Positions 5,947 through 33,020 of a stretch of 35,516 nt of DNA are shown in pieces. How positions within the stretch are numbered: position 1 is the stretch's first letter; every line of letters starts with the position of its first letter. This DNA is from a virus: positions 75,201-110,716 of the IMG/VR virus record IMGVR_UViG_3300037504_000227. One strand, 5' to 3'. The notes under the pieces are model-generated. The model was not told the origin of the DNA and did not search any database. It worked only from the letters and a program-made list of their open reading frames with translations. The translations under genes and the position numbers were made by a program.

Positions 5947-7850
5947 AGCTTGCAAGCCCCTCCTGCACACGCAACAACTTGAGACGCCTTTGTCCAGTCT
6001 CCTTTTTCATAAGCGTACAACTTGGAGAAGTCAATCTCAGGGAATGCAGCAATGGCTTCCTCGTATTCTTCCTCAGTGATTTCCTCGTAGGGCATAATGT
6101 CGTAAGACGCATCGGACGCCGGCAAGAAAGCCATTCCCCCAATCTCGTTTTGATGCTCCCAAACCCACTCGATTAAGTCCAAGAGTTCATCTTGCTTGTA
6201 CGTGATTGTCACAGATGGATTGTGCTCTGTCCAGTTGCGCTTGACCTGTAACCAGTATTCGCACTGTTCAATTGCAGATTTGTCTTCTTTGAGAATTGCA
6301 CCATCTGGAGCCTTGACAGGGAAATGAACCCACCAATCTGTTCCATTATCCCTTGTCATTGGCACACCGGCATCTTTAAGTACTTTGAACATCGGAGTGG
6401 AAGAATTAACTTTAATGTTGCGCATATAGTATTGGGAGTGCCAAGGGTGAATGCCACTAGAGCACCCCAACAGAACACTTGAGTTTCCGCTTGGCTTAAC
6501 GACAGTTGTTGCTGTTGATTGCTTAATCCCTAACCTTTCGGCATACTCCTTGTTAACTTTAACTGCGTGCTTGCGAAGCTCCCTCTGGACATTCGGATCA
6601 CGGGAGACAAGTGAGTCCATTTGCCCAGCAAGGTCTACGCCTAACAATCTCTCTTTCTCACAACTGCGCTTCCACTCTGGCCTCAAGCCAGGGAAGTGCG
6701 TTGCCATAGATTGAATTGTGCCTATAATGGTAGCAAGCTCAACTTTCCGCTTCAGGGAGTGGAATGTGTCATCTGGGCGCGCCACAGCCATTGTTAAATT
6801 GCATAATCCGACCGGCTCTGAAATTACACTCTCGCCACAGGGATTTATGCCATAAACACCAAACTTTCTCCGTGCTGGCTTTGTGTTGTTCGCAGCGAAA
6901 CGCGAGAAGATCCCTGGCTCTCCATTCCCGCCTTTGTCCATATCCAGCATAAATCTGGCAATCTCTGCCTGACTCTGGTAAGGTGGTAGCACAACAGAAT
7001 TGTTGGCGTTGTAGCGGTATTTCTTCTTTCTGAGATCGCCGTTTTTGGCGTGGCGCATTACATCGTCGTCGTGGTCGAACAGGGAGATCATTGCGGTTCT
7101 GCGTACACCACCACACACAGATGCTTGCCCGATGGCACACATAATGTCGTGGGCGTCGATGGGGCGCAGACACTTCCCCTGACGCTCTAGGATCGTTTCT
7201 CTGACGAAATCCAGCATCCAACGTAGTGGATCAGGACCAGAGGCTCTACCGCCCTTAGTCATCAGCGGCGCGCCGGCAGGACGTATCTCAGAGTAGTCAA
7301 ATGACAAATCCTGCCCATTCATCCAGGCGATTAACCCCTGAGTCAACGCCTCCGCCCATCCCTCAGAAGAATCAGGGATAGTAAACGTGCCAAGATACAC
7401 ACCTGTTTGTCGCTTAACCCTAGGCAACCGTTCGACGTATCGCTTCTCGACAGAGAATCCAACGCCACATCCTGACATTGAAATGATTAGGGCCTCTATG
7501 AATGCGGCTAAGCAATCCACGACAAGATACGCACAGTTGTAAATACACAGGTTGTTTCGGCGTGCTGCCGGACCTGCCATTGCCAGTAAACGCAAAGAAG
7601 GCATCACTTCCATATTCAGGATGGCATCGTGGATCTCTCTGTAAACATTGCCATCCAACTTGCTCGCGGAGAGTTCTACCAGATACGCAACAGCGCGATC
7701 CACAGTCTCAGGCCACGTCTCGCGTCTCCCCTTGCCCCAGTCGTACCGACTGTACTTGTCGAAGAATTGGAATTGCTGGATAGCTGTTGGAAAGTATAAT
7801 GCTGATTTATCAAATGCTCGTCTAACGGGTTGGGGAACGCTAGAAGTCAA
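5943..7850 (-). CDS. adenosylcobalamin-dependent (class II) ribonucleotide reductase
   Basis: The 635-residue protein matches the monomeric class II ribonucleoside-triphosphate reductases. Visible features are NNLCIYNC (C102/C106, one the reductive cysteine), SGCGVGFS (126-133), NPCGES (N336, C338 the thiyl cysteine, E340), GLCNLT (C350 the partner) and STATTVVKPSGNSS. A C-terminal cysteine pair CAGGAC (C628/C633) would shuttle electrons. It converts ribonucleotides to deoxyribonucleotides using B12, independently of oxygen. No separate small subunit is present, as expected for class II. The start is TTG 7850, because a stop lies seven codons upstream and no ATG is available. It is shorter than the Lactobacillus enzyme (about 740 aa). 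Confidence 0.92.
   Translation of the reverse strand: MTSSVPQPVRRAFDKSALYFPTAIQQFQFFDKYSRYDWGKGRRETWPETVDRAVAYLVELSASKLDGNVYREIHDAILNMEVMPSLRLLAMAGPAARRNNLCIYNCAYLVVDCLAAFIEALIISMSGCGVGFSVEKRYVERLPRVKRQTGVYLGTFTIPDSSEGWAEALTQGLIAWMNGQDLSFDYSEIRPAGAPLMTKGGRASGPDPLRWMLDFVRETILERQGKCLRPIDAHDIMCAIGQASVCGGVRRTAMISLFDHDDDVMRHAKNGDLRKKKYRYNANNSVVLPPYQSQAEIARFMLDMDKGGNGEPGIFSRFAANNTKPARRKFGVYGINPCGESVISEPVGLCNLTMAVARPDDTFHSLKRKVELATIIGTIQSMATHFPGLRPEWKRSCEKERLLGVDLAGQMDSLVSRDPNVQRELRKHAVKVNKEYAERLGIKQSTATTVVKPSGNSSVLLGCSSGIHPWHSQYYMRNIKVNSSTPMFKVLKDAGVPMTRDNGTDWWVHFPVKAPDGAILKEDKSAIEQCEYWLQVKRNWTEHNPSVTITYKQDELLDLIEWVWEHQNEIGGMAFLPASDASYDIMPYEEITEEEYEEAIAAFPEIDFSKLYAYEKGDWTKASQVVACAGGACKL
6406..6415 (+). 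repeat. TTAACTTTAA motif copy
   Basis: Exact 10-mer inside the reductase gene, coding in a frame that gives Ile-Lys-Val-Asn. One of nine exact copies in the window (see findings). Confidence 0.7.
6553..6562 (+). repeat. TTAACTTTAA motif copy
   Basis: Second copy, 147 bases from the first, also inside the reductase gene. Confidence 0.7.
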
Positions 7851-8034
7851 CTCGCACGCCCCTTTCGTTTACCTTGATAATATCGTATCCTACAACCCGT
7901 TCACCGTCATAAATCCACCTAACTTCTTCGCCCTCTTCCAACACAACAGAAATCGGACCGCTTGAAGCCCGATCTTCCCACCTTGCAGACTGTGGGGCGA
8001 ACACTTCTCTTTGTCCATCACTCAATTTGGCCAT
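7840..8034 (-). CDS. small hypothetical protein (64 aa)
   Basis: ATG 8034 with GAGGATGATAAACG upstream, so the ribosome binding site is somewhat distant. The acidic, strand-rich product (ISVVLEEGEEVRWIYDGERVVGYDIIKVNERG) is of no known family. Its 3' end overlaps the TTG start of the reductase by 11 bases, which suggests the reductase is translated by coupling from this gene. Its own start overlaps the gene at 8018-8209. Confidence 0.6.
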   Translation of the reverse strand: MAKLSDGQREVFAPQSARWEDRASSGPISVVLEEGEEVRWIYDGERVVGYDIIKVNERGVRVDF

Positions 8035-8209
8035 CGTTTATCATCCTCATAGTCCATTTCTCAGGTAGGGGAAGCTTCTCTGCACTCGACACACGCTTCA
8101 CCTTAACAGGCTGCTTGCCGTGGAGTATGACAACGTATTCCCCATACCCACTTGTTCTTTCAAAGAATCGAATCAACTCCATATACCGTTCGACAGTCTC
8201 CTTGTCCAT
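8018..8209 (-). CDS. small hypothetical protein (63 aa)
   Basis: ATG 8209 forms TAATG with the stop of the metallophosphoesterase gene and is preceded by GGGGGGGATA, a usable ribosome binding site within the upstream gene's last codons. The protein is short and charged (MDKETVERYMELIRFFERTSG..., then KVKRVSSAEKLPLPEKW). No recognisable domain. The close head-to-tail arrangement makes it part of the nucleotide metabolism operon. Confidence 0.6.
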   Translation of the reverse strand: MDKETVERYMELIRFFERTSGYGEYVVILHGKQPVKVKRVSSAEKLPLPEKWTMRMINDGQIE

Positions 8210-11250: not shown

Positions 11251-11256
11251 AGAGGC

Positions 11257-11268
11257 ATTATACCACAA
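11257..11268 (-). promoter_or_regulatory. extended -10 promoter, leaderless start of the methyltransferase operon
   Basis: On the minus strand TTGTGGTATAAT ends six bases before the ATG at 11250 and includes the TGn extended -10 element. No good -35 is visible at 17 bp. With the usual 6-8 bp from the -10 to the start point, transcription would begin at or within 1-2 bases of the ATG. Confidence 0.6.
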
Positions 11269-11296
11269 AAATCAAAAAAGCGAACTTAAAACTATC

Positions 11297-11440
11297 TTAG
11301 GAAGCTACCACCAGTGCCACAGTCAAAACCAGCCAAATCACGAATATCCCAAGTGCGTGATTTATCCAGTGTATGGACCTCGGAGGATCCTCCCGTTGCT
11401 TCTCTTCCTCACCTTGTTGCACCTGCACGCACTCAGACAT
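11297..11440 (-). CDS. nested small membrane protein (47 aa)
   Basis: A short ORF read in a different frame from the portal C-terminus. ATG 11440 has AGGAG 7 bases upstream and the stop is at 11297, so the first 79 bases are shared with the portal gene and the rest extends beyond it. The product is polar for about 22 residues (MSECVQVQQGEEEKQRE), followed by one hydrophobic segment HALGIFVIWLVLTVALVVAS. That is a C-tail-anchored, holin- or spanin-sized protein. The strong ribosome binding site and the coding region past the portal stop argue it is real. Role unknown. Confidence 0.6.
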   Translation of the reverse strand: MSECVQVQQGEEEKQREDPPRSIHWINHALGIFVIWLVLTVALVVAS

Positions 11441-14400
11441 ATACGCTCTCCTATTGGCTTCAACACACCGACTGGCACCCAGCCCATCTCTGCATCGCCC
11501 TCACACTCATCACACACTCTACCATCGCCTTGTGTGACAAGCTTTTCCTGAACAACGTCGTTCGGCAACGTTGCTGGGATTGCATCGTTCTGATACAGCT
11601 TGTAAATCTCACCTGAGTACATCGACACGCGATATTTCAGGGAGCGAAGCGACGCACCCACAACATCCTTGAGAACATCTAGTGGGGCTTGTGTATTCTC
11701 ATTCATAGCAACGCCAATCTTGCGTCGAATATCTGGCACAAGCTTTTCTTCGATGTACATATAGGCTCGGTTCAGATTGCGCGAGATCTTATCTAATGCC
11801 TGACGATCTGGCTCTCTACCTGTGGTCAAGGTCCAAACAAGGAATGCCGCCTCTCTCAATCGCATCCTCATTCTCTCAGAGAGCATCATCAGCATTTCTT
11901 CTACAAGTTCAGCATTGTCCTCAAGCAACCCCTGCTTTAGCTGTTCTAGCAAGAATTGAATAGATTGGTCATAATCTGCCATCAACGCTTGACCAAGTTT
12001 ATCCACCAATTCAATCGCTTGATCGTATGTTAGAGGGAACTCATACGGAACGTCTGCAAAGTTAACTTCCTCTGAGTCCTCAGATGGATTAGCCCAATCA
12101 TAACATGACCAGAAGCCTGCTGCAAATGGATCTTTCTTCGTGCTACAACTGTGGCGCGACAGGAAGTTCTTGCGAGCCTCTTTGTTGGTCCTGCGCATTG
12201 GCATATCTGGATCGGCGTAGTGAACCAGCCTTTCCTTATCCTTGTACTTGACTGTGCGCATCCACGCTTTGTCGTCTCGGCTTGAGGATCTGCGACGTGT
12301 GGCACGGCACGTCACACCGTTGTAGGTATACCTGTAGAATTTAGCGTCGCCAAACTCCTCTTCTTTGGGAGGCTCAATCGGCTCTTTGTCAGATTCGACA
12401 GGCTGATTTGCTTTCAGCAGAAGCCCAGGCTCTTGAATCTCAGGAAGCCCAATGCGACGGCGTGTTGCCTGCTCTGTCTCTAGGTCGTATGTGATCCCAC
12501 CAGCGTCCAACAAGCGCGCCACGATGTTTGCATACCCCTCAACGTCCAGCTTCGCAATCGGAACGAAGTGAATCTCAGGCATTGCTCCCTCGTGCCCGTT
12601 CAGCTTCATTAACCTTGGTATGCCGTGACGATTGATAACCGAAGCAACTTGCTGTAAGAATCCGTTAACTGCCTTAATGAACAAGGCTGACTTGTCCGCG
12701 TGCATCGCCCAAGATCCCTGATCCCCACCACCAAGCATCAGGAAGTCAGCCATAATTGTGCGCGCCATGTCGCGCTGGTGACGTGTGATCGTTTCTCCTG
12801 GACTGATTGGCGGTGAACCCTTTGGCATTTCGTAGCGGAAGCTCCAACCAAACGGCTCAGTTAGCCCCATGTCGTCGCCCAGCTTGATGTTACGCACAAT
12901 CTTCTTTGCGCGAGACAGATCAGATGTGGAATCACTGTCTGTAGTCGCCCCATCAGGCATACCCATCACAGGCGTTCCGGACATGCGCTCAATAACGATT
13001 GCCTCTTCAATCTTTAGGTTTTTAGCAAAGAACCAAGAGGTGTACGCGCCTTCGAAAATCGAGTTGTGCGTCGGTATCATTCCCTCTCCAGCAAGGAACA
13101 AATGACTTGGCCCATCTGTTTGTATACACACCGTTCTGCGTGGAGGAACCCTTTCTACTTTTGTAATATAATGATTTGTTCTTGCCCGCACGTCTTTGCA
13201 CCGCTCTATCTTTCTTGACAGTTTGAATGGAACAAAGTTGTGCGGAGTAAACTTGACTTTATATGTTATTTGACATCCGTCTCGCTCTTTTGTTGTTATT
13301 CTGGCATCGCCGCCGAGAGAGCGTATTAGTTCTGCGGCACCATATGCAAGATTCCTGTTTGTATTTGTGAATTCGCATCTGCCCCATCTGTCAACTGTTC
13401 CATCGCTGTCCATTAAGCCCTGTAGCAATTCGAGTCTTTGTTTGCGAGACGACATCAAGTATCGTCTTGGAATATGCTTGTTGTTTAACACGCCGATTGC
13501 ATTTAATTTCCAGGACACCTTGTATATTCTTATCATCCTGCCCTTGCCGCCCCGCAGGCCGTTTCTTGACACCCTTGTATCATACCCGTATGATTCAAAT
13601 ATAGCAACTGTCTCTGGAACATCTTGAACGTGAGATGTAACTATCCCACCATTGGAATGCCCGTCGCCAAGCCATTGGCCAAGCAGATATGGCTCAACTA
13701 CAAGTTCCATGTGAGGATAGTCAAGCGACTCTGCCCACGGTATGGCGTGGTTGTTTATGTAATATTGCTTGCCATTCTTTTTGCCGTGTGGCTTCTTGAC
13801 CGTCTTGGCGATTTGCTTTGTTGTTCTAACCCTGCCCCTTTTGTGATATGCTCTTTCGCGAGCATTCTCGGTATACCACTTGTGGCTTTCGTCAGCAATT
13901 ATTTCTACGCCAGTGTCAAAGGTTACTTTGTAGCAAGGTCTGTTTTCCCAATCCTTGCGACCAATAACATATCTTATTCTGCCCTTCTCATCAAACACTT
14001 TATTTCCCGGACGCAGATCGTCTATTTTTCTCCATCCATCTGGCGTAACGATGGGCGTGTTTGGGTCAAGAGCCCTTCCTTCAGGAGAATTCTTGCCGGC
14101 ACCAGTTGTGGTGAAGTGCAACATCTTCTCGATTGGGATATACGGCGGTCCCATTTTACGAGAGGAGTTGCTGATCTGAACCATTCCCTGAAGCCCACCA
14201 TTTTCGTCCAGATCCCAATGGAGTAGTGTGGTTGGGTGACGGGGTGCCCACTTGCGCCAGTAGATTCGTCCGTCGTCCCGGCGCTCATAGACCAACTCAA
14301 CATCGAAGAACCCATAGGCAAGGAAGTACACAATGTCACTCATTGTCTCAGAGAACGATTTAGTCATTGTCGTCAGATTCTCTTTGACAAACTGCGCCTG

Positions 14401-14649
14401 CTCTACATCAGCGTCATCATCTGAGGCAGGCAGAATATCCCACTCAGCCTCTCGCATGAACATGGTCGAAACCATCATCATCGCAGACCCGGTAGGGTCA
14501 AGCCTTGAGATCTCGTCCCAGATCTTAATGCGCTTCTCGTTGGTCAGTAGATCTGTAACCCACTGCTCTTTGACATAGCCTGAATACTCGTCAAGACCAG
14601 TGACGCCGATCTCACTCATCAGACGTGATTCTATCTTGTTATCTGCCAT
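11362..14649 (-). CDS. portal protein with intein, fused to SSSRDDK and MuF-like domains
   Basis: ATG 14649 follows GGGGGTTGT. Numbering is from this Met. Residues 1-192 and 530-755 form a phage portal (DUF935/gp29-like style; SPEGR|SIFEGAY spliced together). An intein occupies 193-529 and is described separately. After splicing the C-terminal half holds a domain about 770-865 with TCRATRRRSSSRDDK...HYADPDMPMRR...RHSCSTKKDPFAAGFWSCYDW. Next is a helical region, then a MuF-like tail (about 995-1080) with VCDECEGD and CLSACRCN Cys motifs. The product is the portal at the capsid vertex plus a MuF head-morphogenesis module. The precursor is 1095 residues and the spliced protein would be about 758. 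The 3' end contains the nested small membrane gene. Confidence 0.85.
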   Translation of the reverse strand: MADNKIESRLMSEIGVTGLDEYSGYVKEQWVTDLLTNEKRIKIWDEISRLDPTGSAMMMVSTMFMREAEWDILPASDDDADVEQAQFVKENLTTMTKSFSETMSDIVYFLAYGFFDVELVYERRDDGRIYWRKWAPRHPTTLLHWDLDENGGLQGMVQISNSSRKMGPPYIPIEKMLHFTTTGAGKNSPEGRALDPNTPIVTPDGWRKIDDLRPGNKVFDEKGRIRYVIGRKDWENRPCYKVTFDTGVEIIADESHKWYTENARERAYHKRGRVRTTKQIAKTVKKPHGKKNGKQYYINNHAIPWAESLDYPHMELVVEPYLLGQWLGDGHSNGGIVTSHVQDVPETVAIFESYGYDTRVSRNGLRGGKGRMIRIYKVSWKLNAIGVLNNKHIPRRYLMSSRKQRLELLQGLMDSDGTVDRWGRCEFTNTNRNLAYGAAELIRSLGGDARITTKERDGCQITYKVKFTPHNFVPFKLSRKIERCKDVRARTNHYITKVERVPPRRTVCIQTDGPSHLFLAGEGMIPTHNSIFEGAYTSWFFAKNLKIEEAIVIERMSGTPVMGMPDGATTDSDSTSDLSRAKKIVRNIKLGDDMGLTEPFGWSFRYEMPKGSPPISPGETITRHQRDMARTIMADFLMLGGGDQGSWAMHADKSALFIKAVNGFLQQVASVINRHGIPRLMKLNGHEGAMPEIHFVPIAKLDVEGYANIVARLLDAGGITYDLETEQATRRRIGLPEIQEPGLLLKANQPVESDKEPIEPPKEEEFGDAKFYRYTYNGVTCRATRRRSSSRDDKAWMRTVKYKDKERLVHYADPDMPMRRTNKEARKNFLSRHSCSTKKDPFAAGFWSCYDWANPSEDSEEVNFADVPYEFPLTYDQAIELVDKLGQALMADYDQSIQFLLEQLKQGLLEDNAELVEEMLMMLSERMRMRLREAAFLVWTLTTGREPDRQALDKISRNLNRAYMYIEEKLVPDIRRKIGVAMNENTQAPLDVLKDVVGASLRSLKYRVSMYSGEIYKLYQNDAIPATLPNDVVQEKLVTQGDGRVCDECEGDAEMGWVPVGVLKPIGERICLSACRCNKVRKRSNGRILRGPYTG
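13063..14073 (-). mobile_element. intein with LAGLIDADG endonuclease inserted in the portal gene
   Basis: The insert starts at Ala (ALDPNTPIVTPDGW, block A) and ends at ...GMIPTHN followed by Ser. It is thus an Ala1-type intein (337 aa), with Asn as the last residue and Ser as the +1 extein residue. Block B (IIADESHKWYT) and the two LAGLIDADG helices LLGQWLGDG and LLQGLMDSDG are present, so it may still home. The exteins SPEGR and SIFEGAY rejoin into a standard portal motif. Splicing needs no gene-level feature beyond this frame. Confidence 0.88.
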
Positions 14650-14704: not shown

Positions 14705-14714
14705 TTAAAGTTAA
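14705..14714 (-). repeat. TTAACTTTAA motif copy (intergenic, between small membrane gene and portal)
   Basis: Reverse orientation copy in the 67-base gap upstream of the portal gene. Confidence 0.7.
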
Positions 14715-14716
14715 TG

Positions 14717-15058
14717 CTACTCTTCGAGCGTGAATAGATGTGCGGCATGCGAGCTTGAGAACGAAATACCCAATAGCCAAACGCCAAGGTTAAGCCATTG
14801 TTCAAGCCCAGCAGGGAACGTCGCCCAGCCCAGTCCAACGCCAACGCTATACATCGCAAAGCTGGCAATCAAGCCAATTACATAGGCCAAAATCCGCATC
14901 ACCTGACGTGAGTTGAAGGCAAAGATCTGTGCCTGAACGTTGGTCAGCCAAGCAGCAATATTCTTGCCAATTGGCTTCTCAAGCAACCAGAACGCCACCA
15001 ATCCACCGCCGCCGCTCGTTAGAAACGGCCAAAGCAATCCCTTGAACAGTCCTTCCAT
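14717..15058 (-). CDS. small membrane protein, possible holin-like or head-region protein (113 aa)
   Basis: ATG 15058 lies 5 bases after AGGAGG. The 113-residue protein has three hydrophobic stretches: residues about 8-26 (LWPFLTSGGGGLVAFWLL), about 55-75 (ILAYVIGLIASFAMYSVGV) and about 85-102 (LEQWLNLGVWLLGISFS). It sits between TerL and the portal gene. Genes for membrane proteins in this place are often called holin-like, but no functional motif is visible, and the label is inference. Confidence 0.55.
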   Translation of the reverse strand: MEGLFKGLLWPFLTSGGGGLVAFWLLEKPIGKNIAAWLTNVQAQIFAFNSRQVMRILAYVIGLIASFAMYSVGVGLGWATFPAGLEQWLNLGVWLLGISFSSSHAAHLFTLEE

Positions 15059-15067: not shown

Positions 15068-16729
15068 CTAATATGGACTCCATTTGTGCTTGCGTCCATC
15101 ACTTGTTGATCCACTTGCTCTAATCGCCTCTGGCGCACCGTGAATCCCTACAGGACCACCAACCATCCCGTACCGCCACGCATCTGCAAAGTCGTCATTC
15201 TCTTTCTCTGGCGTGTCACGGTCATACTCAAATGCACCATCAGCACTTTTCCTTCTCTTACAATGATACAGGTCAGACAAAGCTGTGATAAGGTTCTCAC
15301 AAGACGGATCGAAGTACACTGATACTGTCTCTGTCACATCCAATAAATAATCCCTGCAATACCCGATCCCATAAGCCACGTTGGAAACCTCAGTTGGGAT
15401 CGTTCGTCCATTCAACCCTTCGCGCTTCCAATCCCTTGCCTCATCCGATGCTGTGCGCTCCATCCAGAACACAGAGATGTACAGCCCGTACTTCTGCTGA
15501 ATATTCTCCCGCATCTCGCGTGCAGCCTTTCGAATTGTGGATGGAGTGGCACTGTCATCCTTCCACTCTGCAATGACGTGCCGCATCCTTTTGCCATTAG
15601 GCATAACGCCTGGGGCTTGAGCAATAACAACAATGCGCCCTCTACTTCTCAGGTCTACACCAGCGCAACAGTGCCACCTGGATATGTCGGCGTCTGGCAA
15701 TGGGAAATCCTTTACGTGCTCAACGCGGCTAAACTGAGAGTATACCATCCCCTGAGACGTTCCGCGCATCAACAAGTTCTGTAATGCGAACGTCTCTGCA
15801 TCTGTGGTCAGGAATTTAGAGACAACATCCCTGTATCTATAGTGCCCGTCTGCTCTAGCGCCTCGGCCTTGGCACAACTCCTCTCGAACATTAGTATAAG
15901 GATTGCGCCACATATACAACGGGCACTCTTTGCAATCAATCGGGTACTCTCGACCACAACTCTCCATCACGTCCAGGATGTCAAACTGATAAACTTCAAT
16001 CCTGCGCTTGCTTGCCTCAGAAACCAACGCCTGCATCGTGCCATAGCTGTGATACTGTGAAGAGGCGAGGAGCGTCATCGCGTTGTACTTACTGTCCGAC
16101 ATTGGCATCTGCAACGCTGTGTTGAGAATGTCCCACGGAATATGGTCAATCTCGTCTGCTGCCAGAATGTGAGGGTGAGGACCAGACACAGAGCGTTCAG
16201 ACCCGCCTGTTCTGATCTCTACCTTGCTCCCGCTCTTCAGGACCGTTTTCGTGACTCTTGGCTCAGAAGCCAAAGCCTTGTCAAACGGAGGTCTACGGAT
16301 CACCCCCCTTTTGCCGTCTTTCTCTGGATCGCCTGCATAGTAAGCGTACCCATCTCTGCTCTGCTCTTGTGTGCCGCCAATGTGAACGATCTCGATCCCA
16401 TCTTTGAATATGGTTTGTGCGACGTGGTGAATACCGCACAGAGTCAACGTCTTGCCGCCACCACGACAAGCCCTCATCAACATCGTCGGGTGTTTCTCGA
16501 AATAGGCGTCAGCCAAGAACTCGAATGGACTGCGATGTCCCTCCTTGGTCGTTGTTCTGGCAAGCTTGTAGCCCAAAACATCACGTGTCCACTCATACAG
16601 CTCTTTCCTGGTTCTAGGCTTCTTGAACGCCTTCTTGATACGACGGCGCTCTTTCTCTGCCTTTAGATCTTCAAGAGCTTGTAAGAGCAGGTGGGGCGGT
16701 ATCTGACTCTTCTTCAAATTCTCCGTCAA
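15068..16729 (-). CDS. terminase large subunit
   Basis: The 553-residue protein has the ATPase-nuclease layout of TerL. The Walker A-like motif ACRGGGKT is at 87-94, Walker B ILAADE at 188-193, and the coupling motif LLASS at about 220-224. The RNase H-like nuclease residues are D359 (GVDLR), E424 (FWMER) and the DDFADAW cluster at 512-517. It pumps DNA into the procapsid through the portal and cuts the concatemer. TTG 16729 is the chosen start because GGAG lies 6 bases upstream and no ATG is nearer. The ORF overlaps the 3' end of the TerS gene by 59 bases. Confidence 0.93.
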   Translation of the reverse strand: MTENLKKSQIPPHLLLQALEDLKAEKERRRIKKAFKKPRTRKELYEWTRDVLGYKLARTTTKEGHRSPFEFLADAYFEKHPTMLMRACRGGGKTLTLCGIHHVAQTIFKDGIEIVHIGGTQEQSRDGYAYYAGDPEKDGKRGVIRRPPFDKALASEPRVTKTVLKSGSKVEIRTGGSERSVSGPHPHILAADEIDHIPWDILNTALQMPMSDSKYNAMTLLASSQYHSYGTMQALVSEASKRRIEVYQFDILDVMESCGREYPIDCKECPLYMWRNPYTNVREELCQGRGARADGHYRYRDVVSKFLTTDAETFALQNLLMRGTSQGMVYSQFSRVEHVKDFPLPDADISRWHCCAGVDLRSRGRIVVIAQAPGVMPNGKRMRHVIAEWKDDSATPSTIRKAAREMRENIQQKYGLYISVFWMERTASDEARDWKREGLNGRTIPTEVSNVAYGIGYCRDYLLDVTETVSVYFDPSCENLITALSDLYHCKRRKSADGAFEYDRDTPEKENDDFADAWRYGMVGGPVGIHGAPEAIRASGSTSDGRKHKWSPY

Positions 16730-17727: not shown

Positions 17728-18022
17728 ACAAGACGCAATAGAAGAACTAGATGAAGCCACACGCTACATTGTCATCGAACGCGATCAGGGAAAGTGTGTA
17801 GACTGCAGCAAGCCATACCACGACATTCACGAAATTGTCTCAAGGTCACACTTCGGCACCCGCCACCTAGACAAATGCTTCAAGGTCAAGAATCGGTGCT
17901 GTGTATGTCGCAGATGCCACGACTATTACCAGGGCGATCACATCAAGGAGTTGCTTGAGCTGATGCAAGAGAAGTATAGATACGATTACTCAGAGCGTCC
18001 CTGGAGTCTTCACCTTGGCTAA
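17717..18022 (+). CDS. HNH endonuclease-like protein (101 aa)
   Basis: The protein reads ERDQGKCVDCSKPYHDIHEIVSRSHFG...CCVCRRCHDYYQG. This has the zinc pair CVDC, the HNH-type dyad in DIHEIVSRS, and the second CVCRRCH cluster, in a 101-residue form. HNH proteins beside terminase genes often help packaging nicking, as in HK97 gp74. Here the gene lies 500 bases from the divergent terS gene, so such a role is inference. It overlaps the preceding gene by 11 bases and the following gene by 8. Confidence 0.8.
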   Translation: MGLRQDAIEELDEATRYIVIERDQGKCVDCSKPYHDIHEIVSRSHFGTRHLDKCFKVKNRCCVCRRCHDYYQGDHIKELLELMQEKYRYDYSERPWSLHLG

Positions 18023-18551
18023 AGAACGAGGCGAAGCCGGTCCTGAAGCTGGAATCTCTATGCGGTCGTGGGGATGGTTTGCCTACGCCGTCAGGGACGC
18101 CACGCGATGCCCATACTGCGGCAAGCTTATCTTCCCTGGGGCAACTGGCGGAACGTGGGATTACAAGAAGGTCGGTGTCCCTATTTGGCCCAGTAGAAAA
18201 GTCGCGTTTATAGATGTCGAGGTCAAGGCCGGGCACACAAGCATCCCATTCTCATCTATAGACGAGAGGAAGCGTGAGTGGGCAGAGCAAGAGAGAGATC
18301 GACAGAAGTGGCTTTGGTTCTGTATCGGGAAGAACGCTGTGAATGCGAGGGAACATCCCAGACGAACGTGGCTTTTCCCCTACAGGCTGTTCCTGAGACT
18401 AGAACAAAAGTTCGATAGAAAGTCTATTCCATATGATTGTGAGGAATTGAGGGAGTATGAACTTGAGTGGGACGGAGATAGAACGTGGGTGATTCCCAAT
18501 GGACACCCGCTTCAAAAATGGATTGGAGGCACTAATGGACAGCTCAATTAA
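18015..18551 (+). CDS. putative PD-(D/E)XK nuclease with Zn-ribbon (178 aa)
   Basis: TTG 18015 is the apparent start (GGAG 8 bases upstream) and overlaps the HNH stop. Residues about 32-38 (CPYCGKLI) form a zinc-ribbon knuckle. VAFIDVEVKAGHTSIPFSS near residue 65-80 has an E-x-K core after a D, as in PD-(D/E)XK enzymes, with basic residues after it. The C-terminal part is aromatic and acidic. It is probably a structure-specific or RecB-like nuclease that works beside the RecA-like gene two genes on. Full catalytic layout cannot be proved by eye. Confidence 0.5.
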   Translation: MAKERGEAGPEAGISMRSWGWFAYAVRDATRCPYCGKLIFPGATGGTWDYKKVGVPIWPSRKVAFIDVEVKAGHTSIPFSSIDERKREWAEQERDRQKWLWFCIGKNAVNAREHPRRTWLFPYRLFLRLEQKFDRKSIPYDCEELREYELEWDGDRTWVIPNGHPLQKWIGGTNGQLN

Positions 18552-19790: not shown

Positions 19791-22700
19791 AAACGGAGGA
19801 TTTGAACAAGAGTGGGTAGATAATCACACAGTTACAATCTACCCTGTGGACGGTGCGCCATACGAGGCAGAGCGGGGGAACATCTTCGTGTTGCCCGGAT
19901 GGGAGGTATGGTTTAAGCATAAGGCAGGAACGTGGGACCAACCAGAGGTCACAGACATTTGGGCGTCTGCATACGATTATCGTGTAAGGTCTGGGCAAAA
20001 GGCGCAAAAGTTTTTCACCACTGGCAGGCGACACGACGGTGGATACAGACAGCAAATTAACGTTAATGCTGGGCAAAAGATTAGAGTGACAGCTTGGGGG
20101 CACGCCTGGAGTAACCACCACGACCCAGACTTATTCTATTGCTACGAGTGCTGGGAGCCAGTTCGCTTCAACCCAGACCAAGAGTTTACAGCTTGCCCCA
20201 ATTGCGACACGCCTCTGAGCAGGCAGGTTCTACACGACGCCAACCGATATGTCTTTCCACATCCCAACGACGGCAAGTGGAGCGAGGGGACAGGGATTGG
20301 GTATAACATCGTGGCCCTAAATCCAAGCGAGATTCCAGAAATGAGTGGCGATCCACAGAACGACGCCATTGGGAACATTATGCTTTCTGTTGGCATCGAC
20401 CCTACAGGCAACACAAATCCGTTTGCGTCAACAGTTGTCTGGAACTCCAAGGCTATCTACAATGGATACAAAGAGTCTATCACAGTTGAAGCTGTTGCAC
20501 AGAGCGAAACGATTACAATATTCCTGAGAAGCACAACGCTGTATGCGTTTAAGCACAATGATGTGTATTGGGACGATGTTAGCGCAGAGGTTGTGGATGA
20601 GTCTCCACTACCACCAACAGAATGGGATTATGACGTGGTAGAAACAGGGAGCAAACTGTCGGTGCACACCATCAATACAGATGGGGTTCCTGGATTTGCT
20701 CAGACCTTAAAGGACAATGGTATAGGGTTTGCCGTCATCAAGGGCGTGGACAATCTTGGGTGGCTAGTGGATGCAAAGCAAAACTATCCAGACTCAACCA
20801 TTGTCGCCAGACTGGTACACGACTACGAAAGGTGCCCAGACGTTCACTTCCCTGAGACTGACCTAGACAATCTGGCAGACAATATTTTCAGTGCGATCAC
20901 AGACGCATGCGACGCGACCAATGGACTAAAAGAGGCTGTGGATTACTGGGAGCCAATCAATGAGCCAGATCCACCTGGAACAGATGGCTATCGACGCCTG
21001 TCCGAACTGCAGTTCAAGCTTATGGATCGGGCAGAGGATTACGGTGTCAAGATTGCCATCTTCACCCTCAACGCAGGCACGCCAGAGTGGGATGAAGCAC
21101 AAGCTATGGTGGAAACAGGCGTGTTCGGCAGGGCAAAGCAGGGAGGACATATCCTAGCCCTTCACGAAGGCGTCTTTAGCCCATACGATCCTGTGGACAC
21201 GTGGTGGGGCGATGACATCCCTGGCGTGCCAGATGGGCTTGGCGAAGAGATCGGCGCGGGAGCACTGTGCTTCCGCTATCGGTATCTGTACCACCTGCTA
21301 CAAGAAAGAAACGAGGTCATTCCCCTTGTTGTCTCTGAGTGGTGCGGTTATGACCAAGGGCCACTGACGCCAGACGATGTTTTGCAACGGGTTGAGTGGT
21401 ACGATACGAAAATGCGAGAGGATTACTGGGCCTGGGGATTCTGCCCATTCACACTAGGACCAACGTCTGGATGGACAAGCCACGACTACGAGTTTGCCTA
21501 TCAGACCATCGTAGACTATATGATCTCCATTAAGGATGAACAAAATGGACTTCCAACAGAAGATCCAGCGCCGCCAGAGGAGTACTGGGGATTTCCAAGA
21601 GAGCAGTATTCACGAACATATGTTCTAATGCCACCTGGGCTTGGAGTTGACTGGTACATTCAAGCACAGATCGGAGGATTCGAGAAAAGGCTAACAGTTG
21701 GGTCCAGCGCCGACGATGCAGGCATTGGCTATCTAGATGACAAGACTGTTTTGGCAATCAACCCAGACCTATGGACAGATGACTTGCAGGCTTTCTTCAC
21801 GAAACACTACCCACACACGACGTATCGTGTTGTAAACGCTAGTACGCCAGAAGAGCTGGCATTAAAGTTAATGCCGTCTTCCGATGGCGACTTGACCGTT
21901 TCGCAAAACAACCCACTATGGGCAAACGACGATCTGGGCGAAGAGCCTGGAGGGGAAACCATTGGAGAGGCTGGGTGTTTGCTGTCGGTCGCGTGTATGA
22001 TTCTAAGAAAGGTGTACAATCGCAACATCATCCCGCCAATTCTGAACAAGTCACTTGAGCAAAGCGGGAATGCCTTCTTCGAGGACGACCTGCTTTCCTG
22101 GAACGACGCAATCAGCAAGTACCCCGCGTTTGATAATTCGGCCAAGATCAATAGCAGTTTCGCGATCTCTGATCTGGCTCAGATGCAGGACGATGGATGG
22201 GAGATCGGACTTAGAGTGAGTGGCGGATCTCACTTCGTCTACCTAGAATATGCAACAGATCAATTGCACGTCATCGACCCTTGGGATGGAGAACGCAAGA
22301 CCTGGGACATCAACGATGTGTCTGGAATCAGAGCAGCACACGTAGCAGGGGGAGAGCCAAAGCCACCAAGCGACTTAAATGTAATAGGCGTACATGGCTC
22401 GCCCATCTTGTCACCGCCTCCACGAGAAGATTGGGGTTTCTGGATCTCAGAGATGAAGGTCATGGGCGTCAAGCTCTACAAGGTGCTGGATAGCGGAGGT
22501 GCTGATAACATCGACTGGGTAAATAGACTAATGGAAAATGGGATCGAGCCAATCGTCAGAGTGTTCTGCGCACAACAATTCCCATCCAGGTTGCCACGCG
22601 GCCTGATGGACAGGGCAAAGCAACTAATTGATGCCGGCGTTAAGAAACTAGAGATCGGGAACGAACCAAACCTTCCTGGAGAATGGCAAAGCAAATTCCG

Positions 22701-23328
22701 AGATAGAGTAGATTGGCACAACTCAGATCTTGTTGCGTTGGTTGCTGAGAACTGGTGGATGGACGCCAAGGAAATAACAGACCACGGCGGGCAAATAGCA
22801 TTTATGGCTATGGCACCCACAGACCGAGGCGGAACAAACTCAAAATACTCAAGCGTGAAGTGGTACAAAGGCATTGCACAACACATAGCAAACAACCATC
22901 GCAACGAAGCACAAACACTTATCGGAAGTGGGAAGCTGTGGGTAGCGGTTCATATTTCCCCATTCAATAGAACACTGGACTTTAGCCCGTTCAGAGATGG
23001 ATACATTGACGATATGTGCCTCAGAGCATATGAAGCATACAACAAAATCTATCATGAAACGCTTGGAATCCAACCAATCGTTATTAGCACCGAAGGAGGG
23101 GCATACAGCCCCGAACACCTAGACGATCTTGGTTGGGATGCATATACAGAGGAGTATTGGGCGCAGCTGGCAGTCAGCATGTACCAATATCTAGCAGAAC
23201 ACAACGGGCCTCCTGTATGCTCTTGGGTTCTCACTGATCAGGGCGTCGATGATCCAAGGTGGAGAGATAATGGATGGTATCGTGGCAAAAGTCCGAGGCT
23301 GATTGTTCAAACGATGAAAGAGGCTTGA
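19783..23328 (+). CDS. giant multidomain glycosidase/peptidase-like protein (putative lysin or cell-wall/polysaccharide enzyme)
   Basis: GTG 19783 (AAAGGA 9 bases upstream) gives 1181 residues and overlaps the recombinase stop. In order: residues 1-90, a CBM-like domain starting ENGGFE. At 120-141 there is a Cys4 zinc ribbon CYEC...CPNC. About 280-590 is a glycosidase-type TIM barrel with acid/base E394 (EPINEP) and candidate nucleophile E519 (VVSEW). About 720-840 is a papain/C39-type peptidase-like segment with C732 (GEAGCLLS), H817 (GGSHFVYLEY) and D832 (VIDPWDGE). About 860-1180 is a second GH-type barrel with E961 (EIGNEPN) and E1104 (ISTEGG). The combination suggests an enzyme that degrades host surface or cell wall polymers. 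No signal peptide is visible. Confidence 0.75.
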   Translation: MIENGGFEQEWVDNHTVTIYPVDGAPYEAERGNIFVLPGWEVWFKHKAGTWDQPEVTDIWASAYDYRVRSGQKAQKFFTTGRRHDGGYRQQINVNAGQKIRVTAWGHAWSNHHDPDLFYCYECWEPVRFNPDQEFTACPNCDTPLSRQVLHDANRYVFPHPNDGKWSEGTGIGYNIVALNPSEIPEMSGDPQNDAIGNIMLSVGIDPTGNTNPFASTVVWNSKAIYNGYKESITVEAVAQSETITIFLRSTTLYAFKHNDVYWDDVSAEVVDESPLPPTEWDYDVVETGSKLSVHTINTDGVPGFAQTLKDNGIGFAVIKGVDNLGWLVDAKQNYPDSTIVARLVHDYERCPDVHFPETDLDNLADNIFSAITDACDATNGLKEAVDYWEPINEPDPPGTDGYRRLSELQFKLMDRAEDYGVKIAIFTLNAGTPEWDEAQAMVETGVFGRAKQGGHILALHEGVFSPYDPVDTWWGDDIPGVPDGLGEEIGAGALCFRYRYLYHLLQERNEVIPLVVSEWCGYDQGPLTPDDVLQRVEWYDTKMREDYWAWGFCPFTLGPTSGWTSHDYEFAYQTIVDYMISIKDEQNGLPTEDPAPPEEYWGFPREQYSRTYVLMPPGLGVDWYIQAQIGGFEKRLTVGSSADDAGIGYLDDKTVLAINPDLWTDDLQAFFTKHYPHTTYRVVNASTPEELALKLMPSSDGDLTVSQNNPLWANDDLGEEPGGETIGEAGCLLSVACMILRKVYNRNIIPPILNKSLEQSGNAFFEDDLLSWNDAISKYPAFDNSAKINSSFAISDLAQMQDDGWEIGLRVSGGSHFVYLEYATDQLHVIDPWDGERKTWDINDVSGIRAAHVAGGEPKPPSDLNVIGVHGSPILSPPPREDWGFWISEMKVMGVKLYKVLDSGGADNIDWVNRLMENGIEPIVRVFCAQQFPSRLPRGLMDRAKQLIDAGVKKLEIGNEPNLPGEWQSKFRDRVDWHNSDLVALVAENWWMDAKEITDHGGQIAFMAMAPTDRGGTNSKYSSVKWYKGIAQHIANNHRNEAQTLIGSGKLWVAVHISPFNRTLDFSPFRDGYIDDMCLRAYEAYNKIYHETLGIQPIVISTEGGAYSPEHLDDLGWDAYTEEYWAQLAVSMYQYLAEHNGPPVCSWVLTDQGVDDPRWRDNGWYRGKSPRLIVQTMKEA
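21862..21871 (-). repeat. TTAACTTTAA motif copy in the giant protein gene
   Basis: Here the flanks extend the palindrome: GGCATTAA-AG-TTAATGCC. Confidence 0.7.
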
Positions 23329-27145: not shown

Positions 27146-27148
27146 AAA

Positions 27149-27168: not shown

Positions 27169-27189
27169 CTTCGTTTTACAGCAGGCTTG

Positions 27190-28257
27190 CTACAGATGCA
27201 TTGGCATTATGATATGCCACAGGGCAGGGAACTCAGAGCACCTAACCTGAAGTGGTGTATTCTCCCCATTGCATCCCAGATAGACCTCCCCCTTCATTAC
27301 CTTGAGAGCGTCAACCAAATACTCTCCATTTAGCCCGACACGTACATCCTCGCCCTCTACTTCAGCCGGGACAAACGACACACCCTCCCCTGTGTCTGCC
27401 CACCCGCGCACAGATAGGCCGTCCTGAGTCACATTAATGATAACTACATTCTGGTAATCTGAGGCAAACAGCATCGCCGCCTCTACAGCGCTAGCAAAGG
27501 TTTCACGCTCCTGCACAGTGATGTTGATGTTGCTATCTCCACGCGCCTTGCTAACATTCGGATAATTGCCTGCCAGTAGATTGCTGAACATCCAACATTC
27601 ATCGCCCACAAACAAGAGCGAGTTTCCAACTGCCTGCAGTTCAATATCATCTGTCCTGGCATACTTCCAATTCACCAACGCCGCAGATGGAATGTTGGCT
27701 TCACCATCGCCGTAGTCGGCGAACGTTTCGTCCATCGAGGCACGAGTGCCATCCGCGCCACTAATCGTAACACGTCCCCCTTCTACCTTAACATTAATTG
27801 ATTCTAGGATAGGCATTGGGTTTTCCTTGTCGATAGTAGACAGGATATGCCGAACTCTCCTCTGAAACTCGTCATTGCTCATACGCAAGATTGTCTCGCC
27901 CCCCTCGATGTCTGGGAGAGGGAAATCACCGCCAGAGATTGGCAGCGCCATTTCAAAACTGCCACACGAAAACTTCAACTCGCTATCCGTGCTAACGATC
28001 TCGACCTCTCCATCAACTAGATTTACCCAATCGCGCAACTTCTTTGCACTAACTGCCGCTTCGCCTTCCTCTACAACATCACAATCAGAAATCGACTGCG
28101 CCCAAGTGTGACCATTTGTGCCAATGATCTGTAACGCACCATCTGCCGCAGAGAGAAAGAGTGCCTTGTAGATAGGCAAAGTGGAACGTGAAGGCGAAGT
28201 CCGATACGGGCATGCGATTGTGTCAGCCAAAACGTCAGCATTAACTTTAACTCTCAT
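27190..28257 (-). CDS. dnaN: DNA polymerase III beta subunit-like sliding clamp
   Basis: The 355-residue protein has the three-repeat beta-clamp layout. SSLF-type strands and a DGTRASMD region are recognisable. LLAGNYPNVSKA and the C-terminal LNGEYLVDALKVMKGEVYLGCNG...FPALWHIIMPMHL match the FNxxYLxdaL...yyIMPM signature of bacterial clamps. It would ring DNA and tether polymerase and repair enzymes. ATG 28257 has AAAGGAGG 9 bases upstream. The second start codon region carries a TTAACTTTAA copy (28241-28250). No polymerase or clamp loader is in this window, so host or elsewhere-encoded partners are required. Confidence 0.85.
   Translation of the reverse strand: MRVKVNADVLADTIACPYRTSPSRSTLPIYKALFLSAADGALQIIGTNGHTWAQSISDCDVVEEGEAAVSAKKLRDWVNLVDGEVEIVSTDSELKFSCGSFEMALPISGGDFPLPDIEGGETILRMSNDEFQRRVRHILSTIDKENPMPILESINVKVEGGRVTISGADGTRASMDETFADYGDGEANIPSAALVNWKYARTDDIELQAVGNSLLFVGDECWMFSNLLAGNYPNVSKARGDSNINITVQERETFASAVEAAMLFASDYQNVVIINVTQDGLSVRGWADTGEGVSFVPAEVEGEDVRVGLNGEYLVDALKVMKGEVYLGCNGENTPLQVRCSEFPALWHIIMPMHL
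28241..28250 (+). repeat. TTAACTTTAA motif copy at clamp gene start
   Basis: Exact copy in the first codons of the clamp gene. Shares the 17-base stretch CATTAACTTTAACTCTC with the copy at 33011. Confidence 0.7.
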
Positions 28258-28423
28258 TTGAAAATGCCTCCTTTAGCAAACCAGCAGCAGTGCCTTTCCC
28301 TGTACTGCGCCAGATACGTGCAATCCTCTCGATTAGGTATACAATTAACCCTATGACATCAATTGCTGTTAACCGAGCTAGTCCATCAGCCAACTCATCC
28401 ATCTTATTGTACCACTCAATCAT
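28247..28423 (-). CDS. small hypothetical protein (58 aa)
   Basis: ATG 28423 overlaps the preceding TGA and has GGAGG 6 bases upstream. The much longer in-frame ORF has no better start. The product reads MIEWYNKMDELADGLARLTAIDVIGLIVYLIERIARIW, with one hydrophobic helix, so it may be a small membrane-associated protein. It lies just upstream of the clamp gene and overlaps its start by 11 bases, suggesting translational coupling. No family recognised. Confidence 0.55.
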   Translation of the reverse strand: MIEWYNKMDELADGLARLTAIDVIGLIVYLIERIARIWRSTGKGTAAGLLKEAFSNES

Positions 28424-28674
28424 CTCAAGCCTCCCTTCCACTGATTGTACGCATTCACTAACTCCTGTGCCGGGATAATCTGTCCCAGCCTGCGATTTGC
28501 CATCCCGTCCAAGGAAGACGACAGAGCCTCTGCATACTGAACGAGATCCACAACCCAAGGATAGCAAACTGTCCCCACGACTGTTTGTTTGCCTGTTTTG
28601 TCACAAATGCCCGTCTTGAGCAGAGGGCAATTCCGTGAGCAAAAGGCAATCCCGCCATTGATCTTAGGCTTCAC
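28420..28674 (-). CDS. Cys-rich hypothetical protein (84 aa)
   Basis: GTG 28674 has GGAGG 6 bases upstream, inside the end of the preceding gene. Four cysteines (C12, C16, C24, C37) lie in FCSRNCPLLKTGICDKTGKQTVVGTVC, spacing that could bind zinc or an Fe-S cluster. The C-terminal half is helical. It is probably a small metal-binding protein linked to replication or repair by position beside the clamp gene, but no family match is visible. Confidence 0.6.
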   Translation of the reverse strand: MKPKINGGIAFCSRNCPLLKTGICDKTGKQTVVGTVCYPWVVDLVQYAEALSSSLDGMANRRLGQIIPAQELVNAYNQWKGGLR

Positions 28675-29395
28675 CTTCTTCCTCCATTCTTGACAACGTT
28701 CTACTTACGTGACTCTCGGAACAACCAACCTCAAGTGCAATCTTGGCTTGCGTCCACTTAGGATGCTTGGACGCAAGATAAACAATTGCCTCTTGCTTAC
28801 TCATCTTGTCTAAGTCAACTTTTGATTCCTCTTTCTTGTCTGGCTTAGGTTTTTCTTCATCGCCGCTCTTGATTTCTGCAAGAAGCTGTTGTTTCCTGGG
28901 CAAGTATTTCTTGCGGCTGTAAGGTGAAATTCCTGACAGAATCATCTCGTCAACCCGCTCCCTGTGAACCTTGCGCATCGACAATACAAACACGCCTGTC
29001 GCGCTCAGGGCAGGGAAGATCAGCAAAGCCCAATCCTGAAACTCATTGGGCGGCTCAAGGAAGACTGTAATTAAGATCACAGCAATGAAATACACCACGA
29101 CCATCCATCGCGCTGCCTTCTCTGGCGCTTTTCTCGGCTCATCCTCTGCAATGGTTCTGTTATGTTCTGAGAACTCCATAGCTGTACTGATCGCGCTGAA
29201 TCCCAACAACTCAACGACCGCCGCTGCGATCCAGGCTATCCAGGACTTAAAGTTAAGGCTGGACACAAGCGATCTCTGGACAACGTATGCTGTGGGCATA
29301 GGTGCAATCCAAGGCGAGAACCTGGCCGCGATGTCGGCGGCGAATGTCTCTAGCGCCTCTAGTGCCCTAACGAATCTTTGTAGCAACCGAATCAC
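28664..29395 (-). CDS. membrane protein with C-terminal HTH (243 aa)
   Basis: GTG 29395 has AAGGAG 6 bases upstream. The N-terminal half contains three hydrophobic stretches (about 51-69, 97-114 and 122-141). A basic, lysine-rich linker follows (KPKPDKKEESK), then at 204-240 a helix-turn-helix WTQAKIALEVGCSESHVSRTLSRMEEEG. A membrane-tethered DNA-binding protein is suggested, for example one that senses or anchors DNA at the membrane. This arrangement is inference from hydrophobicity and motif. Confidence 0.65.
   Translation of the reverse strand: MIRLLQRFVRALEALETFAADIAARFSPWIAPMPTAYVVQRSLVSSLNFKSWIAWIAAAVVELLGFSAISTAMEFSEHNRTIAEDEPRKAPEKAARWMVVVYFIAVILITVFLEPPNEFQDWALLIFPALSATGVFVLSMRKVHRERVDEMILSGISPYSRKKYLPRKQQLLAEIKSGDEEKPKPDKKEESKVDLDKMSKQEAIVYLASKHPKWTQAKIALEVGCSESHVSRTLSRMEEEGEA
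29247..29256 (-). repeat. TTAACTTTAA motif copy
   Basis: Exact copy inside the membrane-HTH gene, coding SLNFKS, a different frame from the reductase copies. Confidence 0.7.
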
Positions 29396-30680: not shown

Positions 30681-30682
30681 GT

Positions 30683-30862: not shown

Positions 30863-30872
30863 TGTGGCCTCC

Positions 30873-30884
30873 ATTATACCATAT
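30873..30884 (-). promoter_or_regulatory. candidate extended -10 promoter
   Basis: On the minus strand TATGGTATAAT includes a TGn extended -10 hexamer. The GTG start at 30862 is 10 bases on. No -35 is visible at 17 bp. Transcription from here would start just before the GTG and would lose the GGAGG site, so the evidence is weaker than for the other promoters. Confidence 0.3.
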
Positions 30885-30901
30885 AATCATCGTCGCCGAC
30901 C

Positions 30902-30911
30902 TTAAAGTTAA
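30902..30911 (-). repeat. TTAACTTTAA motif copy (near intergenic promoter)
   Basis: Exact copy overlapping the stop of the 142-residue gene and lying upstream of the candidate -10 at 30873-30878. Confidence 0.7.
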
Positions 30912-31336
30912 CCCGACTCAAGCTCCCTGTATGCTTCCAAGGCGCTTCCGTATCCACCATCATTCCTGTATGCAATCTCATTGGCAATTGCTAGCAGCAG
31001 CGCAGCCTCACATCGGTGCTCTTCATAGCAGTAGTAAATAGCAGACAACGCATTAATAATATGGTGCAAGTAATGGACGCCAACGCGCTTTCTTATTTCA
31101 CTTCCAGTCATGCCCGCAATCATGAAAGTGTCATCTTTGTTTTCTTTAACCCATGGACCAAGTTCGCTTTTTTGGCCAACCATCGCCCGAATGCGCGCAG
31201 TGAAGAACCACTTAATTCTACAAACTTCTGTGTCGAGATGGTCAATGTCAGGCCCCCTAATGGCAGACAGAATATGGTAGAACTCTTCATCATTGACCAA
31301 AACAGCCAGCGCCCTTTTCTTCTCTTCGTTATTCAT
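30908..31336 (-). CDS. helical protein, copy A of a duplicated family (142 aa)
   Basis: ATG 31336 (TGATG overlap with the upstream stop; AAGGAGG 7 bases before). The 142-residue product is almost all helical. Residues about 23-52 (SAIRGPDIDHLDTEVCRIKWFFTARIRAMVG) and 83-140 (IRKRVGVHYLHHIINALSAIYYC...EIAYRNDGGYGSALEAYRELE) align with ALRGPD...LFTARLRSMIG and VGVHYFDHVGSALHKI...IAHRRNNEYVKVLDKYME of the protein at 31562-31987. Function unknown. Each copy is followed by a small TM gene. Confidence 0.65.
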   Translation of the reverse strand: MNNEEKKRALAVLVNDEEFYHILSAIRGPDIDHLDTEVCRIKWFFTARIRAMVGQKSELGPWVKENKDDTFMIAGMTGSEIRKRVGVHYLHHIINALSAIYYCYEEHRCEAALLLAIANEIAYRNDGGYGSALEAYRELESG

Positions 31337-32243: not shown

Positions 32244-32682
32244 TTTGCACCCCTTTCTCCCATTCAGCAATCGAGCCAGGAACCATCACAAACAGCGGAT
32301 GCACCAAGGGCTCAGACCAGTCAATCTGACCCAGCCATTCAGGATCACGCTCTTTCAGCTTGTCGATTAGATGCCCAAGCTCAAAGTAAAACTGCCCAGA
32401 AGTCACTGTCATTCTGTGAGCCGGGTCAGCTTCGTACTGGATCAAATCACGATTATAGTTGTATCCGCGACGGACGGCCTCTACCCAAATCCAATGTAGA
32501 TATGTCCCAATCATTTCAGGACGATCCTTGAAGCGAATGAGTTGGGGATGATTGGAATATCCAACATTTTCTTCATCGCTCTCTAGCCTTTTAAGAATGG
32601 CCTGTGCTCCAAGCCCCTCACGCCATACGGCGTTCAGTCCCAGGTAATCCAGCAGCGACGGATGCAGACTCCAAAGTCTCAC
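32236..32682 (-). CDS. pyrimidine dimer DNA glycosylase (PF03013-like)
   Basis: GTG 32682 has GGAGG 7 bases upstream and overlaps the preceding stop. The 148-residue protein closely fits the family in bacteria and phages: MRLWSLHP at the N-terminus, AVWREGLGAQAIL with E22 (equivalent in place to the T4 DenV catalytic glutamate), NHPQLIRFK, YLHWIWVEAVRRGYNYNRD, TSGQFYFELGHLIDKLKERDPEWL and HPLFVMVPGSIAEWEK. It would excise UV dimers and cut at the resulting abasic site, giving the phage UV repair. Confidence 0.85.
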   Translation of the reverse strand: MRLWSLHPSLLDYLGLNAVWREGLGAQAILKRLESDEENVGYSNHPQLIRFKDRPEMIGTYLHWIWVEAVRRGYNYNRDLIQYEADPAHRMTVTSGQFYFELGHLIDKLKERDPEWLGQIDWSEPLVHPLFVMVPGSIAEWEKGVQNG

Positions 32683-33011
32683 TCTTGCACCTCCTCAATA
32701 CGCCCACACAGTTCATCGAATGGCAAGTTCCTCTCTAGTGCTTCCTTCACTATATCATGCACGCACCGATCTGCAAGTGACATCTGTCCTGTTTCTGAGG
32801 TGACACCTCTCCACCCATCTTGGCCGCTATCGAAGAAGTCCTTGCGCACGCTCAGGTAATGCTCTGTATCCTCAAGCTCAAGAACCTCCAAGAGTGTAGA
32901 GATTGCTGCTGTGACCGCAACCCTATCCGGTGAATTCTCGAATGGAGCGCAATCATCCAGCGCCTCAAGATATTTGTCCATCAACTCGCAGATCTCTCCA
33001 GGTGACAACAT
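32679..33011 (-). CDS. hypothetical acidic protein (110 aa)
   Basis: ATG 33011 has GGAGAG upstream with a TTAAAGTTA spacer, so a copy of the repeated 10-bp motif (33011-33020) sits in the translation start region. The 110-residue product is acidic and helical (MLSPGEICELMDKYLEALDD...DRVAVTAAISTLLEVLEL...). Its tail gives the ribosome binding site of the glycosylase. No family recognised. The motif could let a DNA-binding protein affect expression of this gene. Confidence 0.6.
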   Translation of the reverse strand: MLSPGEICELMDKYLEALDDCAPFENSPDRVAVTAAISTLLEVLELEDTEHYLSVRKDFFDSGQDGWRGVTSETGQMSLADRCVHDIVKEALERNLPFDELCGRIEEVQE

Positions 33012-33020
33012 TAACTTTAA
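33011..33020 (+). repeat. TTAACTTTAA motif copy in translation start region
   Basis: Exact copy between the ribosome binding site and ATG of the 110-residue gene. Shares CATTAACTTTAACTCTC with the copy at 28241. Confidence 0.7.

Follow-up and report, generated by a model that had tools for sequence, protein, structure and literature searches.

Why does a ten-base word, TTAACTTTAA, recur across a phage genome, and what might read it? The window in which this question arises, meaning the whole 35,516-nucleotide stretch of DNA analysed here, runs from position 75201 to 110716 of a virus record 110,716 bp long, that of a tailed phage with a genomic G+C of 50%. The records used are metagenomic and possibly incomplete, and genes were called with a simple in-house caller. 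No close relative of this phage was found in the phage collection searched. The landmark genes of the window, in window coordinates, are as follows.

5943..7478, - strand: B12-type ribonucleotide reductase gene
11362..14649, - strand: Mu-type portal gene with an intein-like LAGLIDADG insert, flanked on both sides by portal matches
15068..16576, - strand: terminase-like gene
27190..28257, - strand: sliding-clamp (DNA polymerase III beta) gene

The phage also encodes RecA, DnaB, a C5 DNA methylase, two FtsK/SpoIIIE-like translocases and a tyrosine integrase. Among its further features are 20 tRNA genes within 3.6 kb (window 408-4039), several serving one amino acid, a Ro60/TROVE RNA-binding protein (record 18487-20106), and three short proteins (record 5331, 45733 and 66261) that resemble Flp-type pilins (GQGLVEYVLI...) on a by-eye reading and could thereby point to the host group.

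Enrichment and shape of the motif

An earlier note, made from the window alone, had listed nine exact copies of TTAACTTTAA in both orientations and in different coding frames and gaps, and every coordinate and strand that it gave is exact. Nine copies compare with 0.04 expected in the window, and none of 100 shuffles reached that number. Extending the count to the full record yielded 20 copies, 10 on each strand and both genic and intergenic, against an expectation of about 0.05-0.11, Markov expectation included. TTAACTTTAA is the commonest 10-mer in the genome; the runner-up among unrelated 10-mers, GTGGTATAAT, is an extended promoter -10 present in nine copies. The motif thus stands far above both other AT-rich 10-mers and codon-shuffled controls, the background comparison that the earlier note had proposed. 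Twelve copies lie wholly within genes, compared with 0.6 in codon-shuffled genes (maximum 3 in 300 shuffles); selection therefore acts on the DNA and not on the codons, as had been suggested from the differing frames. With 20 copies found where about 0.1 would be expected, and with a single occurrence of the reversed control pattern, the idea that the motif is a by-product of AT-richness or of codon usage is already refuted and retains practically no probability. The copies are unevenly spaced and unclustered, spread over the whole record, with the two strands interleaved and no replichore or strand polarity.

The sites of the window, together with near copies, are listed below in window coordinates.

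6406..6415, + strand: TTAACTTTAA, within the ribonucleotide reductase gene 5943..7478 (-)
6553..6562, + strand: TTAACTTTAA, within the same gene, 147 bp from the copy at 6406
14705..14714, - strand: TTAACTTTAA, intergenic, 3 bp beyond the end of 14717..15058 (-)
18548..18557, + strand: TTAACTTTAA, 13 nt into the RHH-like ORF 18535..18723 and including the TAA that ends ORF 18015..18551
18535..18723, + strand: 62-aa RHH-like ORF (RHH according to the earlier note), candidate binder
18698..18707, - strand: GTAACTTTAA, one-mismatch copy near the end of the RHH-like ORF (record 93898)
20057..20066, no strand: TTAACGTTAA, perfect palindromic variant, within ORF 19783..23328
21862..21871, - strand: TTAACTTTAA, within ORF 19783..23328, arms extending to 8 bases
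27788..27797, + strand: TTAACATTAA, variant, within the sliding-clamp gene
28241..28250, + strand: TTAACTTTAA, where the clamp gene 27190..28257 (-) begins, sharing bases with the stop of 28247..28423 (-)
29247..29256, - strand: TTAACTTTAA, within ORF 28664..29395 (-)
30902..30911, - strand: TTAACTTTAA, overlapping the stop codon of 30908..31336 (-), followed after 23 nt by a TATAAT (record 106102, -)
33011..33020, + strand: TTAACTTTAA, covering both the stop of 33017..33796 (-) and the start codon of 32679..33011 (-)

The proposed core, TTAA-N2-TTAA, was borne out by the full record, which contains 26 such sites (N2 is CT in 10, AG in 10, CG in 3, and three others once each). Any other spacing of the two TTAA half-sites occurs at most once, and spacings of 0, 1, 3, 4, 6, 7, 8 and 11 do not occur. 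The two related forms reported earlier, at 20057 and 27788, are both present, and the record holds three TTAACGTTAA sites beside the 20 exact copies. The perfect palindrome with 8-base arms was located at 21862 (GGCATTAA-CT-TTAATGCC), and the 17 bases common to two copies were found at 28241 and 33011 (CATTAACTTTAACTCTC).

Once the 20 copies were oriented, their flanks showed C at -5 in 12 of 20 and R at -4 on the left, and Y at +4 and S at +5 in 18 of 20 each (G at +5 in 12) on the right; immediately outside the core, T is never seen on the left or A on the right. The left flank resembles the reverse complement of the right one, and more so than at comparable 10-mers (p 0.008), a conservative value because the control set includes the TTAACTTTAA sites themselves, although the dyad symmetry of the flanks is weak. 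These features suggest that TTAACTTTAA is the core of a dyad of about 20 bp, C-R-N3-TTAA-CT-TTAA-N3-Y-G, with a two-fold contact zone, and such symmetric flanks point to a site of that length for a protein that would bind as a dimer.

Placement at gene boundaries and promoters

Twelve of the 20 sites are intergenic or no more than 15 bp from the end of a gene. Random positions would put 26% there, and 10-mers containing a single G or C 36% (p 0.025); the remaining eight sites lie well inside genes. A called gene is touched by 15 sites, five of which overlap its stop codon (six counting the ORF ending at 18551). Relative to transcription, 10 sites run in the same direction and 10 are opposed.

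The earlier note had seen the motif and missed its link to promoters. The genome carries a class of nine promoters in which a box, [TC]TTTAAG followed by G, T or A, stands exactly 23 nt before TATAAT; at neighbouring spacings, at most two box-TATAAT pairs occur. All nine lack a TTGACA -35, although ordinary TTGACA promoters exist elsewhere in the genome, for example at record 49293 (-). In two of the nine, those at record 20558 (+) and 106102 (-), TTAACTTTAA itself is the box. At record 71905 (-) a further copy precedes, by 22 nt, a perfect TATAAT whose transcript would run antisense to a PAPS-reductase-like gene, and another at record 20213 (+) sits just past the -10 of another class promoter, ahead of the ribosome-binding site. 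Altogether, three of the 20 sites stand 22-23 nt upstream of a TATAAT and one just downstream of one; with just 44 TATAAT hexamers on both strands, chance is an unlikely explanation for this placement. Most copies have no TATAAT nearby, and most class promoters have no TTAACTTTAA; their boxes mostly match the right half of the dyad only, so that a second protein could read them. Elements of this class in the window include the following.

11257..11291, - strand: same-class promoter with box TTTTAAGTTC, 23 nt and TATAAT, before the C5-methylase gene (record 86462)
30873..30878, - strand: -10 hexamer TATGGTATAAT of the promoter that has the copy at 30902 as its -40 box

A scan of the viral collection for the promoter class returned eight contigs, apparently by chance and with no enrichment of TTAACTTTAA, and a scan for TTAACTTTAA-N23-TATAAT was uninformative, with many single hits among the matches listed.

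Candidate binders and dyads of related phages

The earlier note had named a ribbon-helix-helix (RHH) protein, encoded by the 62-aa ORF, as a candidate binder. The motif copies that it described there are real, an exact one at the start of the gene and a one-mismatch one at its end; the RHH identity was not confirmed. No RHH model among the Pfam, PHROG and NCBIfam profiles matched the ORF, its single-sequence AlphaFold model (pLDDT 66, low confidence) comprises a strand, a long helix and further strands and has no Foldseek match, and hhalign against the RHH ORFs of relatives did not confirm the fold. The location of the gene is what speaks for this protein, which stays a candidate binder only. 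An equally good candidate would be a 77-aa winged-helix protein (record 62779..63012; Trans_reg_C, E 8e-5, below the curated cut-off), whose gene is predicted to sit behind a promoter of the same class. Profile searches of this phage recovered neither an S24 peptidase domain nor RHH_1, and HTH_3 gave only a sub-threshold match inside a small-terminase-like ORF; RHH_1 was weakly matched in three related contigs (G035, G041 and G027). The ParB N-terminal domain (PF02195) had no match at E 0.1 in this phage and the relatives tested, and the Mor domain (PF08765) had none. The ORF 18015..18551, which runs into the 62-aa ORF, is nuclease-like, and its homologues lie upstream of RecA in relatives.

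Exact-peptide searches with the RecA-like, terminase and capsid proteins yielded no useful close relatives, and capsid alignments recovered related contigs whose capsid proteins are 76-34% identical. TTAACTTTAA is not enriched in any of these contigs, and the conservation of sites in relatives that the earlier note had proposed as a test is not seen. Two of the contigs have dispersed dyads of their own. In G035 (113 kb, capsid 56% identical), CTACTCA-N4-TGAGTAG is found at 16 sites spread along 92 kb, with both orientations represented and about half of the sites in genes; in G041 (63.7 kb, capsid 48%), GTCATT-N4-AATGAC occurs at 16 sites over the 60 kb analysed, nearly all at or between genes. 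Their dyad scores (-log10 P) are 29 and 37, respectively, whereas shuffled versions of these two genomes do not exceed 4.5. The dyads are private: counts in the own phage are 24 (this phage), 16 and 16, and in the other phages 0-1. In some relatives, then, the arrangement is repeated with a different dyad sequence.

Most other contigs examined have no dispersed dyad. In the nearest relative, the incomplete contig G026, the dyad AGTCTA-N4-TAGACT is suggestive but not significant against shuffled controls and was rejected; it is present in three exact copies and one with a single mismatch (record 3867, 13540, 21938 and 55172). Separately, 27 copies of a 15-bp palindrome, TTCTAGTCACTAGAA, occupy a 13-kb small-gene block of G035 (record 74591-87397), mostly just upstream of the ribosome-binding site, as a leader element distinct from that phage's dispersed dyad. 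Another contig, G043, has about 15-22 near-identical copies of CATAGGAATAACGCCTGCCACAGTGGATCTGTGACAGGCGT, an element that combines a long hairpin and a conserved lead-in, clustered in its last 20 kb (record 50-70 kb).

Interpretation and relation to known systems

We lean towards reading the TTAACTTTAA sites as operators scattered across the genome, or as sites akin to stoperators, for a dimeric regulator that the phage would encode and whose specificity would shift from lineage to lineage; we regard this as somewhat more probable than not. Such a binder is supported indirectly, by the symmetric flanks, the promoter placement and the analogous dyads in relatives. The regulator would bind the dyad of about 20 bp at some 20-25 copies scattered over the genome. 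At the few promoter sites, which occupy roughly -45 to -36 or fall immediately beyond the -10, the bound dimer would directly control initiation; at copies away from promoters it would act as a road-block or silencer, like mycobacteriophage stoperators. The tyrosine integrase makes a prophage role possible in this phage, where we infer that the sites may help to keep the prophage quiet; the G035 and G041 contigs gave no PF00589 integrase match, so a role in lysogeny would not be general. Against the operator reading stand the negative profile searches of this phage for a repressor domain (S24, HTH_3 above threshold, RHH_1), the eight sites deep in genes and the random orientation, both unlike stoperators, and the promoter boxes that mostly match the right half only and may be read by another protein. 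Of the earlier interpretation, selection at the DNA level stands and a dimeric regulator gains indirect backing; the RHH-like protein stays a candidate binder, favoured by the location of its gene.

Among the other readings, an unlikely one gives the sites a role in organising or segregating phage DNA in the manner of parS, Noc or matS, with a phage protein that coats or tethers the genome and with the promoter overlap incidental. The genome-wide spread over genic and intergenic DNA without strand polarity would suit it, as would the two translocases and the comparable spread of dyads in G035 and G041; the exact register of the promoter copies, the bias to gene boundaries and the lack of a ParB N-terminal domain match in this phage and the relatives tested speak against it. 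Less likely again is that TTAACTTTAA is the strong form of a -40 box for a Mor/MotA-like phage activator, its genic copies being cryptic promoters or decoys. This would account for nine promoters with a fixed 23-nt spacing and no TTGACA, two of them with TTAACTTTAA as the box, but most promoters of the class lack the motif and most copies lack a nearby TATAAT, and no Mor domain was found in the profile search.

A host protein, such as a nucleoid protein or global regulator, could instead read sites that the phage has collected to exploit or evade it. The lack of the motif in the nearest relatives would fit different hosts; the strict 10-bp conservation and the promoter register better fit a dedicated regulator, and the relatives' dyads are equally strict yet unrelated in sequence, which leaves this account improbable, slightly more so than the activator box. 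The replication or packaging element raised in the earlier note, a signal recognised by primase, translocase or terminase, draws on the whole-genome spread and on the translocase and RecA genes. It is disfavoured because strand polarity and clustering are absent, the site moreover being near-palindromic, and we consider it very unlikely.

The preferred reading, dispersed operators, has several partial counterparts. In phiC31, the conserved inverted repeats (CIBs) are repressor operators with many inverted-repeat copies across a temperate genome, some at early promoters, and they are intergenic. The present site likewise is an inverted repeat in many copies, and G041 looks closest to this arrangement; the phage studied here differs in having 12 of its 20 sites wholly in coding sequence. 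With -35-less, activator-dependent promoters of the Mor/MotA type the promoter class shares a box at a fixed 23 nt and the lack of a -35 hexamer. In the Mu middle promoter Pm, the -35 gives way to a dimer site for Mor whose centre lies near -43.5 (PMC4390567); judged from the spacing to the -10, the dyad centre here is near -40.5, and most copies, unlike Mor sites, lie away from promoters. On the single replicon RK2, the KorB operators (OB) similarly include both promoter-proximal and distant sites (PMC11790492). KorB differs in being a clamp of the ParB type, and the present phage gave no match to the ParB N-terminal domain.

Cluster A mycobacteriophages (L5, Bxb1) carry 20-30 genome-wide repressor sites, few of them in promoters (PMC6550527, PMC9283540), and the stoperator consensus changes between their subclusters (PMC6550527). 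The 20 exact and three TTAACGTTAA sites across 110.7 kb resemble this pattern in number, in lying partly at promoters and mostly away from them, and in differing between related phages, here far more drastically. Stoperators are 13-bp, asymmetric, bound by a monomer, oriented with transcription and placed mostly in short intergenic gaps; the site described here is dyad-symmetric and unoriented and, with 12 of 20 copies at gene boundaries and eight deep in genes, often genic. It is possible, and we put it forward tentatively, that phages sharing this capsid type have fast-evolving dispersed operators, each lineage with its own dyad in 16-25 genic and intergenic copies and a dimer that switches specificity between related phages. 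Operator sets that span a whole genome are known in detail chiefly from actinobacteriophages, and a palindromic, unoriented, partly genic set with private versions in environmental relatives would extend known phage regulation. If this is true, enriched dyads would offer a simple sequence handle to cognate regulators and immunity groups in uncultured phages, and the sites would represent a second way, palindromic and indifferent to strand, of silencing a whole genome as stoperators do, in phages other than those of mycobacteria.
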